Positions 20,769 to 23,375 of a stretch of DNA of 37,113 nucleotides are shown here, in pieces (position 1 is the first letter of the stretch; each line of letters begins with the position of its first letter). This DNA comes from Lysobacteraceae bacterium (GTDB lineage: Bacteria; Pseudomonadota; Gammaproteobacteria; Xanthomonadales; Xanthomonadaceae), in contig JANINR010000068.1 in NCBI GenBank assembly GCA_024508915.1, positions 1 through 37,113 of the forward strand, given 5' to 3'. The notes under the pieces are model-generated. The model did no database searches. It was not told the origin of the DNA and saw only the letters and a list, made by a program, of their open reading frames with translations. Position numbers and translations under genes: made by a program.

Positions 20769-20853
20769 TGGTGCGAAAGGCGGGACTCGAACCCGCACGC
20801 CTTGCGGCACCGGTACCTAAAACCGGGGCGTCTACCAGTTCCGCCACTTTCGC
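20769..20853 (-). tRNA. tRNA-Leu(TAG)
   Basis: A class II tRNA. The acceptor stem GCGAAAG pairs with CTTTCGC, with discriminator A and encoded CCA. The anticodon loop TTTAGGT gives TAG, reading CUA and other CUN. The variable arm TGCCGCAAGGCGT folds on itself. It lies after the terminator behind tRNA-Lys, so it may depend on read-through or its own promoter. Confidence 0.95.
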
Positions 20854-20876
20854 GAGCCCCGGATTCTATGCCGGGC

Positions 20877-20908
20877 CAAAAGAAAACGCCCGGCACGGGG
20901 CCGGGCGC
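20877..20908 (-). terminator. Rho-independent terminator behind tRNA-Lys
   Basis: CGCCCGGC-ACGGG-GCCGGGCG (20887-20907) is a perfect 8-bp stem followed on the minus strand by TTTTCTTTT. This is the strongest intrinsic terminator in the window and ends the Pro-Arg-His-Lys tRNA transcript before tRNA-Leu. Confidence 0.85.
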
Positions 20909-20916
20909 TTCGGGAT

Positions 20917-20992
20917 TGGTGGGCCGTCAAGGATTCGAACCTTGGACCTATTGATTAAGAGTCAACTGCTCTACCAACTGAGCTAACGGCCC
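20917..20992 (-). tRNA. tRNA-Lys(CTT)
   Basis: The acceptor stem GGGCCGT pairs with ACGGCCC, with discriminator A and encoded CCA. The anticodon loop CTCTTAA gives CTT, reading AAG. The D-arm TAGCTCAGTTGGTAGA and T-loop GGTTCGAATCC are canonical. Confidence 0.95.
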
Positions 20993-21024
20993 GAAGCGGT
21001 CAATTATACAGCAATGAAGCGAAT

Positions 21025-21101
21025 TGGGGTGGCTGAGGGGACTCGAACCCCCGACATCTGGAATCACAATCCAGGACTCTAACCAACTGAGCTACAGCCA
21101 C
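21025..21101 (-). tRNA. tRNA-His(GTG)
   Basis: The acceptor stem GTGGCTG pairs with CAGCCAC. The discriminator is C and CCA is encoded. The base before G1 (position 21102) is G, giving the extra G-1 that pairs with the C discriminator, a histidine identity element. The anticodon loop is TTGTGAT (anticodon GTG). Confidence 0.96.
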
Positions 21102-21123
21102 CATTGAAGCAACGCGTCGAACG

Positions 21124-21200
21124 TGGCGCGCCCGGCAGGACTCGAACCTGCAACCGCCGGCTTAGAAGGCCGGTGCTCTATCCGGTTGAGCTACGGGCGC
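21124..21200 (-). tRNA. tRNA-Arg(TCT)
   Basis: The acceptor stem GCGCCCG pairs with CGGGCGC, with discriminator G and encoded CCA. The anticodon loop CTTCTAA gives TCT, reading AGA and AGG, rare codons in this GC-rich genome. The D- and T-arms are canonical. Confidence 0.95.
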
Positions 21201-21242
21201 CCGGGCCGGATTGTCGCACCTGCTGCCCTTCCGGGCCGGGGT

Positions 21243-21319
21243 TGGTCGGGGTAGAGGGATTCGAACCCCCGACATCCTGCTCCCAAAGCAGGCGCGCTAC
21301 CAGACTGCGCTATACCCCG
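21243..21319 (-). tRNA. tRNA-Pro(TGG)
   Basis: The acceptor stem CGGGGTA pairs with TACCCCG, with discriminator A and encoded CCA. The anticodon loop TTTGGGA gives TGG, reading CCA and other CCN. The D-arm has the TAGCGCAGTCTGGTAGCGC form usual for proline tRNA. It is the first tRNA of the minus-strand cluster. Confidence 0.96.
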
Positions 21320-21467
21320 CCGATCGGAACGTCTCCGCGGCGCGCCAACGCTGCGAAAGGCCGGCCATTGTCCGGAGCCGGCCGCGGCGTGTCAACGCGA
21401 GCGCCGCGTGCGTCCGGGCCGGGTATGCTGGCCGCGCACCCCGGCAACTTCCAACAGCGAGGCGACG

Positions 21468-22223
21468 ATGCGCAGCGGCAATCCGGTACTGGGCGATTCC
21501 ACCTTCCTCGACGCGGGCACCGGCACGGTCGTCCGGCACGACGCCGGCGCGATGAGCCTGAACGGCACCGTCAACAGGTCGGCCTTCCTGCTCGTGCTCG
21601 TCCTGGCCACGGCGATGTTCACCTGGGCGAAGGCCTACGCCGGCGGCGGCGCCGGCCTGATGCCGTACGTCTGGGGCGGCGCGCTCGGCGGCCTCGCGCT
21701 CGCGCTCGCCACGGTGTTCCGCAAGACCTGGGCGCCGGTGACCGCGCCGCTCTATGCGGCGGCGGAAGGCCTGTTCATCGGCGCGGTGTCGGCGCTGTTC
21801 GAGATGCGCTTCCCCGGGATCGTGCTGCAGGCCGTGGGGCTGACGTTCGGCACCTTCGCGGCGCTGCTCGTGGCCTACCGGAGCGGGCTCGTCCGCGCCA
21901 CGGAGAACTTCAGGCTCGGCGTGGTCGCCGCCACCGGCGGCATCGCCCTGCTCTACCTCGTGAACATCGGCATGCGCCTGTTCGGCTTCGAGGGCATGTC
22001 CTTCATCCACGAGGGCGGCTGGGTCGGGATCGGCTTCTCGGCGGTCGTGGTGGTCGTCGCCGCGCTGAACCTCGTGCTCGACTTCGACTTCATCGAGAAG
22101 GGCATCGAAGGCGGCGCACCGAAATACATGGAGTGGTACGCCGCGTTCGGCCTGCTGGTGACGCTGGTGTGGCTCTACCTCGAGATCCTGCGCCTGCTCT
22201 CCAAGCTGCAGTCCCGCAACTGA
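21468..22223 (+). CDS. Bax inhibitor-1/YccA family membrane protein
   Basis: An inner-membrane protein of 251 residues with about seven hydrophobic segments from residue 38 on (for example FLLVLVLATAMFTWA and VGIGFSAVVVVVAALNLVLDFDFI). The DFDFIEKGIEGGAPKYMEWYAAFGL motif near the C-terminus is the Bax1-I family signature, and the two Asp residues are the proposed calcium or pH sensor of the fold. E. coli YccA modulates FtsH. The length and N-terminal cytoplasmic tail fit. The ATG has a GAGG ribosome site, and TATGCT at 21424-21429 is a possible -10 with a leader of about 30 nt. It faces the isocitrate dehydrogenase gene across a long palindrome. Confidence 0.92.
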   Translation: MRSGNPVLGDSTFLDAGTGTVVRHDAGAMSLNGTVNRSAFLLVLVLATAMFTWAKAYAGGGAGLMPYVWGGALGGLALALATVFRKTWAPVTAPLYAAAEGLFIGAVSALFEMRFPGIVLQAVGLTFGTFAALLVAYRSGLVRATENFRLGVVAATGGIALLYLVNIGMRLFGFEGMSFIHEGGWVGIGFSAVVVVVAALNLVLDFDFIEKGIEGGAPKYMEWYAAFGLLVTLVWLYLEILRLLSKLQSRN

Positions 22224-22230
22224 CGCTTTC

Positions 22231-22355
22231 TTCAGCCACGGATTTCACAGATCCCACAGATTCAAAAGCGTCAAAAAAGTTTGGGCCGCGCAAGCATGCA
22301 CTTGCGCGGCCCAAATCTTTTTCAATCTGTGAAATCTGTGAGATCTGTGGCTGAA
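22231..22355. repeat. Nested inverted repeat between the YccA-like gene and the isocitrate dehydrogenase gene
   Basis: Two palindromes are nested. The inner arms TTTGGGCCGCGCAAG (22280-22294) and its exact complement (22301-22315) enclose CATGCA. The outer imperfect arms lie at 22231-22262 and 22324-22355 and carry repeated CACAGAT units. The outer arms are AT-richer than anything nearby. The whole element can fold into one long stem and likely ends both convergent transcripts. Similar ACAGAT repeats are known to me from other Xanthomonadaceae intergenes (from memory, unchecked). Confidence 0.8.
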
Positions 22356-22364
22356 AAAGTCGTT

Positions 22365-23375
22365 TCAGGCGGCGCGGCGCGCGATGGCCTGGGCGAAGGC
22401 CATGGTGCTGCCGCTGCCGCCGAGGTCGGGCGTGAGCGACTCGCCGGCTTCCAGCGTGGCGTTGATCGCGTTGCGCAGGCGCTCGGCCTTGTCGAGCATG
22501 CCGAGGTGGTCGAGCATCTGCGCCGCGGCCAGGAGCAGCGCGCACGGATTGGCGACGCCCTTGCCGGCGATGTCCGGCGCCGAGCCGTGCACGGCCTCGA
22601 AGATCGCCGCGTCGGTGCCGATGTTCGCGCCCGGCGCGAGGCCCAGGCCGCCCACCAGGCCGGCGCACAGGTCGGAGATGATGTCGCCGAACAGGTTGGT
22701 GGTCACGATCACGTCGAACTGTTCCGGCTTCATCACCAGCTGCATGCAGCAGTTGTCGACGATCAGCTCGTTCGCCTCGATGTCCGGGTACTGCGCGGCC
22801 ACTTCGCGCGCGACCTTCAGGAACAGGCCCGAGGTCGACTTCAGGATGTTCGCCTTGTGGACGATGGTGACCTTCTTCCGCCCGGTGCGGCGCGCCAGCT
22901 CGAAGGCGTAGCGCACGATGCGCTCGGAGCCGCGGCGCGTCGTCTTGGTGATCGAGGTCGCGGTGTCGCCGTCCTCCGACAGCGCCTGGCCTTCGGCGCT
23001 GTACGCGCCCTCGGTGTTCTCGCGCACGGTGACCAGGTCGATGCCCGACGGGAAGCGCGACTTCGTGTTCGGGTGCGATTTCGCCGGACGCACGTTGGCG
23101 TACAGGTCGAAGCGCTTGCGCAGCTCCACGTTGATCGAGGAGAAGCCGCCGCCGACCGGCGTGGTCAGCGGGCTCTTGAACGCGATGCGGTTGCGGCGGA
23201 TCGATTCCAGCGTTTCGGCGGGCAGCAGCTCGCCGGTCTTCTCCAGCGCGGCCAGGCCGGCGTCGGCGAACTCGTAGGCCAGGCCGACGTCCATCGCGTC
23301 GAGCACGTGCAGCGCGGCGTCCATGATCTCCGGGCCGATGCCGTCGCCACGGATGACCGTGATTGTCTGTGTCAT
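22365..23375 (-). CDS. Isocitrate dehydrogenase (NAD+-type, beta-decarboxylating dehydrogenase family)
   Basis: A TCA-cycle enzyme converting isocitrate to 2-oxoglutarate. At 336 residues it belongs to the short, mitochondrial-type branch rather than the longer NADP-type Icd. Visible motifs are ITVIRGDGIGPEIMDA, the substrate loop SPLTTPVGGGFSSINVELRKRFDLYANVRP, VRENTEGAYS and the metal site NLFGDIISDLCAGLVGGLGLAPGANIG, followed by EAVHGSAPDIAGKG. NAD preference is inferred from the family branch. Isopropylmalate or homoisocitrate dehydrogenase is a less likely alternative. CATAAT about 75 bp upstream is a possible -10. Convergent with the YccA-like gene. Confidence 0.85.
   Translation of the reverse strand: MTQTITVIRGDGIGPEIMDAALHVLDAMDVGLAYEFADAGLAALEKTGELLPAETLESIRRNRIAFKSPLTTPVGGGFSSINVELRKRFDLYANVRPAKSHPNTKSRFPSGIDLVTVRENTEGAYSAEGQALSEDGDTATSITKTTRRGSERIVRYAFELARRTGRKKVTIVHKANILKSTSGLFLKVAREVAAQYPDIEANELIVDNCCMQLVMKPEQFDVIVTTNLFGDIISDLCAGLVGGLGLAPGANIGTDAAIFEAVHGSAPDIAGKGVANPCALLLAAAQMLDHLGMLDKAERLRNAINATLEAGESLTPDLGGSGSTMAFAQAIARRAA

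Follow-up and report, generated by a model that had tools for sequence, protein, structure and literature searches.

A hairpin between convergent genes in a Lysobacteraceae genome is a probable copy of a dispersed repeat family associated with the putative nuclease gene GxxExxY

MITEs and foldback-type elements are short and non-coding, and their terminal inverted repeats match those of a longer, gene-bearing element. REPINs, as described in the accessible part of PMC8049555, are dispersed hairpins with two inverted end-modules and a variable centre. In TIRtrons, terminal inverted repeats that can form genomic families enclose a gene resembling that of a transposase; the enzymes, called TIRYTs, belong to the HUH class, and a GGGGWSAS motif occurs in some of the repeats (accessible part of PMC3733652). 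The hairpin family described here resembles the REPIN/RAYT system as far as anatomy goes, but fails its defining features, an HUH enzyme and a GTAG-tagged REP unit. The gene found with it belongs to the GxxExxY family, which is named in passing in the accessible text of PMC8934634. The link between hairpin repeats and GxxExxY is a new point; no published account of iterons or dispersed hairpins flanking GxxExxY, or of the arm motifs, was found in a search that left preprint servers and most subscription journals outside its scope.

In the window (the whole 37,113-nucleotide stretch analysed) we examined a 113-bp inverted repeat at 22237–22349, which extends to 141 bp with its T-rich borders. 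It lies, as an earlier note on this DNA had described, between convergent genes, whose 3′ ends face it: BaxI_1 (21408–22223, + strand), which encodes a Bax inhibitor 1-like protein (PF12811), and Iso_dh (22365–23375, − strand), a member of the isocitrate/isopropylmalate dehydrogenase family (PF00180). Just upstream of the BaxI gene are five consecutive tRNA genes on the − strand (20772–21319, with starts at 20772, 20920, 21028, 21127 and 21246), and at 1235–1464 on the + strand a tRNA gene is closely followed by a small bacterial SRP RNA (both from Rfam).

The repeat begins with a T-rich border, CGCTTTCTTCAGC (22224–22236, + strand), and a similar stretch precedes the arms in most relatives. 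The left arm (22237–22261, + strand) consists of three CACGGAT/CACAGAT units, CACGGATTT CACAGATCC CACAGAT, which start at 22237, 22246 and 22255 and are thus spaced by 9 bp. An A-rich asymmetric stretch, TCAAAAGCGTCAAAAAA (22262–22278, + strand), forms a bulge in the hairpin and has one-sided A-rich counterparts in a number of relatives. It is followed by a GC-rich inner stem and loop (22279–22316, not assigned to a strand) with 15–16 perfect pairs and a loop of 4–6 nt. The right arm (22325–22349, − strand) carries three inverted ATCTGTG units at the same 9-bp spacing, with starts at 22325, 22334 and 22343 (ATCTGTGAA ATCTGTGAG ATCTGTG in + strand letters), and the right border GCTGAAAAAGTCGTT (22350–22364, − strand; + strand letters) completes the structure. 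The outer arms are 82% complementary across 45 nt. The earlier note's picture of a perfect inner stem within imperfect, CACAGAT-rich and comparatively AT-rich arms is therefore accurate: the GC content is 0.42 and 0.38 in the outer flanks and 0.64 in the inner stem-loop, against 0.715 for the window. No second pair of CACRGAT units with 9-bp spacing occurs elsewhere in the window.

Folded as RNA, positions 22224–22362 of the + strand reached −83.6 kcal/mol compared with a shuffle mean of −33.1 (z −14.8), and the − strand reached −85.4 kcal/mol (z −12.7); 0 of 200 shuffles matched the real folding energy for either strand. Rfam gave no credible match at the hairpin, the scores being 26.2 for isrJ (cut-off 37) and 23.7 for the RhlA thermometer (cut-off 85).

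A BLAST-type search of the own genome (G000, of the Luteimonas group; other G numbers denote comparison genomes) with the hairpin returned matches at many places. The 17-bp core pattern CCACAGATTTCACAGAT, allowing up to three mismatches, matched 33 times as against 0 for the reversed control. The arm matches cluster into 11 sites including the window, two of which have one degenerate arm. Two extra pattern matches, C151 and C47, look like chance. Of the two layers distinguished in the earlier note, the arms recur at the 10 other sites; for the inner layer by itself, a single weak match of 19 bp (C65, E 3.15) was obtained outside the arm-bearing C59.

The related genome G001 holds 24 sites by our own count from the match list. 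Its typical element reads TTTAGC-CACAGATNN-CACAGATNN-AAAAGGATT, followed by a variable centre and the mirror image. The idea that the arms wrap arbitrary host DNA was dropped because many G001 centres share a AAAAGGATTGG(K)TTCGCGG-like motif. In a fold test against mononucleotide shuffles, restricted to those 28 elements, from four genomes, in which each side has two strict units, and with the inner part taking in the third unit for some elements, the inner part reached z ≤ −2.0 in 22 of the 28 (15/16 in G001, 3/7 in G000, 1/2 in G006 and 3/3 in G003). The members of the family are hairpins of two inverted end-modules spread through intergenic space, with an arm often starting some 11–18 bp from the end of the neighbouring gene. 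At 49 loci in six genomes the neighbouring genes were in tandem in 24 cases, convergent in 22, divergent in 2 and unassigned in 1; the orientations were called with a simple GC-frame ORF picker, which was apparently wrong for one of the two divergent cases, the gene-bearing locus. Divergent intergenic sites are thus rare.

The longest element of the own genome bears a gene. At C110 the arms lie about 400 bp apart around a 127-aa ORF that is clearly GxxExxY (TIGR04256, 133.3 bits, cut-off 35; PF13366 PDDEXK_3, 137.8 bits, cut-off 22) and the only one found in this genome. In all four GxxExxY-positive members of the genus the gene occupies one shared operon site, as judged from one matching flank and, for the other flank, by eye. 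The gene has therefore probably been inherited in place within the genus, and with this single site it was not itself seen to move there. By eye, loci L043 (G021), L046 (G003), L049 (G006) and L039 (G000) have the gene beside the same acyl-CoA carboxylase/enoyl-CoA hydratase genes; one of the four comes from another genus, which would mean either long-term residence or a hot spot.

The arms of the gene and the dispersed arms vary together. The third unit is AAAGGAT in 35 of 39 dispersed arms and both gene arms of G001, and CACRGAT in 13 of 17 dispersed arms and both gene arms of G000, so that the two kinds of arm co-vary in this unit. Arm type varies among 13 GxxExxY loci drawn from the own genome and ten relatives: CACRGAT units at some, and at others arrays of different units, for instance CGCAAAG, CGCGAAG or CGCGGAT. 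GxxExxY genes often stand in line between host genes of the same direction, for example between fabD and fabG or after radA (L260, L262, L265, L137 and L006), a placement that suggests expression by read-through.

Presence of the gene goes with presence of the repeats in the genus. The four GxxExxY-positive genomes have 34, 42, 8 and 6 CACRGAT pairs, versus 0, 0, 1, 0 and 0 in the five GxxExxY-negative ones (Fisher p 0.008), one of the zeros belonging to G004, which is 76% complete. In the family, GxxExxY was found in 16 of 297 genomes, the gene being fragmented in two of them and interrupted by an in-frame stop in a third. Ten or more unit pairs at 9-bp spacing occurred in 6/16 GxxExxY-positive versus 5/281 GxxExxY-negative genomes, at 10-bp spacing in 8/16 versus 16/281, and at either spacing in 10/16 versus 18/281; the threshold of 10 was set after seeing the tables, which were read by eye, and these statistics ignore phylogeny. 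The 9-bp pattern, which allowed CGCGGAT, has a high background, matching in 273 of the 297 GC-rich family genomes, probably through coding sequence with its period of three codons; the 10-bp-spacing test was added for this reason.

The 18 pair-rich GxxExxY-negative genomes tell against strict dependence on the gene. Those with at least ten 10-bp pairs are G014, G027, G030, G034, G083, G096, G106, G143, G164, G174, G186, G199, G208, G235, G257 and G278. A search for PF13366 in 16 of the 18 gave no match over the cut-off and one weak match below it. It follows that the hairpins can survive, or perhaps spread, in genomes where no GxxExxY gene is recognisable; such genomes possibly have another partner or have lost the gene. 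Conversely, G011, G154 and G269 combine an intact-looking gene with few CRCRGAT pairs, and pairs are also few in G067 (in-frame stop) and in G113 and G128 (gene in pieces).

The association extends to many phyla. A GTDB scan yielded 80 GxxExxY loci from many phyla among the matches listed, with at least 573 related stretches. Seven of the 80 were left out for short flanks, and in the remaining 73 we compared the upstream 250 bp with the reverse complement of the downstream 250 bp, using 532 offset windows of the same loci as controls. Flanking inverted repeats exceeded the 99th percentile of the offset windows in 61 of the 73 listed loci. Mismatched upstream/downstream pairs from different loci passed the threshold in 49 of 431 cases, because the loci share similar units. 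The other 12 loci had no significant flanking repeat, and five of these lacked anything unit-like. At least two units on both sides were found in the right orientation at 39/73 loci, in the wrong orientation at 4/73 and in 2/509 offset windows. Correctly oriented units averaged 2.0 and 2.2 per side and wrongly oriented ones 0.6 and 0.5, compared with 0.26–0.27 for offset windows. Successive units were 9–10 bp apart in 131 cases, with peaks at 10 bp (97) and 9 bp (34).

Dispersed unit pairs were present in 23 of 25 GxxExxY genomes, a biased rate because the genomes were hand-picked from the 80 loci and mostly have CRCRGAT-like arms; they gave 1345 matches, overlapping neighbouring pairs being counted separately, against 1 for the reversed control. 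When 30 dispersed copies from outside the genus were tested, 16 folded back above the 95th percentile of control windows and 9 had a strict inverted partner within 260 bp. Plasmids also carry the gene: six of eight records were inspected, and clear inverted arrays were seen in L260 and L262 (CGCGAAG and CACAGAG types), a weaker one in L265 and none that was clear in the other three. Searches for close relatives of three plasmids did not yield a strain-level pair of filled and empty sites; filled and empty element sites were seen at the level of species only. The phages searched contained no match to GxxExxY, and neither PADLOC nor PHROGs has a family for the protein.

The predicted structure of GxxExxY points to a nuclease. 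AlphaFold2 produced a confident model (pLDDT 95, pTM 0.87), whose best match among solved structures is 4ic1, which we take to be Cas4 (SSO0001), at E 1.5e-4 and Z 9.4 over 96 residues with an rmsd of 3.5. The next Foldseek rows include lambda exonuclease and archaeal Hjc resolvases, and the remaining Z-scores are below 8. A sequence search against solved structures gave only a weak match, to 2f8l (E 0.1). In an alignment of 45 of the 80 listed loci, D73, E83, K85, Q97 and Y101 are invariant. Both the modelled fold and the D...(D/E)xK residues are those of the PD-(D/E)XK superfamily, and we regard GxxExxY as a putative nuclease of this superfamily that is Cas4/lambda-exonuclease/Hjc-like.

The arms are shared between sites, repeats and gene are statistically associated, and the inner stem is terminator-like. 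We put at about 0.65 the probability that the window hairpin belongs, as a non-coding copy, to a dispersed family of iteron hairpins in which the gene-bearing member harbours GxxExxY, and that this copy has been reused as a bidirectional terminator. A spacing of 9–10 bp places about one unit on each helical turn. The GxxExxY nuclease may bind the inverted arrays of 9–10-bp units, the hairpin (perhaps extruded), or both. Cutting at the arms or hairpin would then lead to copying of the hairpin into new intergenic sites, mostly at 3′ ends of genes, as RAYT does for REPINs. The window copy would owe its retention to termination of both convergent transcripts at its inner stem, in a place where G005, G007 and G008 have a plain hairpin. 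No target-site duplication was seen at the elements by eye.

A broader reading, to which we give even odds, is that GxxExxY proteins are the dedicated Cas4/Hjc-like enzymes of a widespread, undescribed class of mobile repeats and copy non-coding hairpins through genomes of many phyla. These enzymes would recognise inverted arrays of 9–10-bp units with a core of roughly CRCRGAT that drifts by lineage. If this is true, a common gene family that is annotated yet unexplained gains a testable function, and intergenic hairpins of many phyla gain a cause. A PD-(D/E)XK nuclease, and not only HUH transposases, could then maintain hairpin repeats as a second, non-HUH counterpart of RAYT, and the window would offer a clear candidate case of a mobile-type repeat reused as a two-way terminator.

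Alternatively, GxxExxY could be a homing-type nuclease or passenger that invades pre-existing hairpins, the repeats having spread by other means. The many unit pairs kept in 18 of 281 gene-negative family genomes fit this account, as does the confinement of the gene to one site in a genus where short hairpins occupy many, and I-Bth0305I, a PD-(D/E)XK homing enzyme, is among the weak structural matches. However, most of the loci examined, in many phyla, have the gene enclosed by arms with lineage-specific units, and within the genus absence of the gene goes with near-absence or decay of the arms. We therefore consider a homing enzyme or passenger unlikely.

The hairpin might also be an ordinary bidirectional intrinsic terminator with arms extended by chance and nothing mobile about it. 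A terminator scan of 22100–22480 returned two sites, one per strand and both at the inner stem, compared with a shuffle mean of 0.5. On each strand the GC-rich stem is followed by a T tract, the predicted tails being CTTTTTCA (22317–22324) on the + strand and CTTTTTTGAC, as read on the − strand, at 22270–22279. Together with the convergent neighbours this is what a plain terminator would look like, and at the BaxI site G005, G007 and G008 carry other GC-rich hairpins with short T tracts (by eye); G001 and G003 have a different neighbour gene there. Such a terminator would not account for arms at 10 other sites with 9-bp unit arrays in common, nor for arms that track GxxExxY presence in the genus and bracket the GxxExxY gene. 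The strong inner stem is moreover missing in several members, only 3 of 7 G000 elements having z ≤ −2.0. A terminator and nothing more is thus distinctly improbable. Judged from its letters, the window copy, as a member of the dispersed family, has apparently been reused as a two-way transcription stop signal. The composite terminator suggested by the earlier note accordingly holds in so far as the inner hairpin fits an intrinsic terminator on both strands; the nested insertion it offered beside this does not, given that the two layers co-occur, the outcome which that note itself had named as speaking against nesting.

Mobilisation of REP/REPIN or TIRtron repeats by a RAYT/Y1 (HUH) transposase is very improbable for this family. 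The anatomy is suggestive: REPINs and REPs too are described, in the accessible parts of PMC8049555 and PMC3733652, as hairpins whose ends are inverted and whose centre varies, and as rare between divergent genes; and, like the RAYT gene as described in the former, GxxExxY is a single-copy gene that keeps to one site within the genus and is framed by the modules of the dispersed copies. The enzymes differ, however, in that the partner here is a putative PD-(D/E)XK protein and RAYT is an HUH Y1 enzyme, and the end-modules here are arrays of 9–10-bp units, not the GTAG-tagged REP stem-loops of REPINs. A Y1_Tnp (PF01797) or RAYT-type gene is absent from the own genome and from G001. G003 and G006 have one each, and Y1_Tnp also occurs in three of the five genus members that lack GxxExxY, where such repeats are almost absent; Y1_Tnp therefore does not track the repeats.

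The eight Y1_Tnp loci retrieved from the genus (L129–L136) have flanking inverted repeats distinct from the arms; several of these resemble GGGGTCAG and some are of the GGAGCGGCGTAAGCCGC type, and each flank has 0–2 loose unit matches. The GGGGTCAG-like repeats recall the GGGGWSAS motif of some TIRYT repeats and differ from the CACRGAT arms, although the hairpin family shares with TIRtrons a gene flanked by terminal inverted repeats that form a genomic family (accessible part of PMC3733652). The likeness to MITEs and foldback elements lies in short, non-coding copies whose ends match a gene-bearing element; here, however, iterons in tandem make up the ends, the centres cannot be recognised as internally deleted forms of the gene element, and no duplication of a target site could be made out.

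Insertion of one repeat into another is hardly credible, for although GC content differs between the layers (0.64 inside, about 0.40 outside), they occur together at orthologous sites in other species and relatives form one continuous hairpin. A chance origin was rejected as well. In a second species, G006, the inner stem at the BaxI/Iso_dh site is again GGGCCGCGCAAG, and arms of the same type enclose it. At a peptidase site the element, with arms and inner stem, is present in three species (G000, G001 and G005), where the G000 and G005 stems resemble GGGTTCGC and that of G001 resembles GGGCCCGCGC. The G001 elements are single long hairpins whose centre drifts and mostly remains palindromic. 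The hairpin is one unit, not two layers. In G005, which lacks GxxExxY, the hairpin of the peptidase site (L116, about 1950–2045) shows decay of the arm on one side with the inner stem GGGTTCGCGG intact, a single observation that is consistent with retention of the stem for termination once the arms no longer had a partner.
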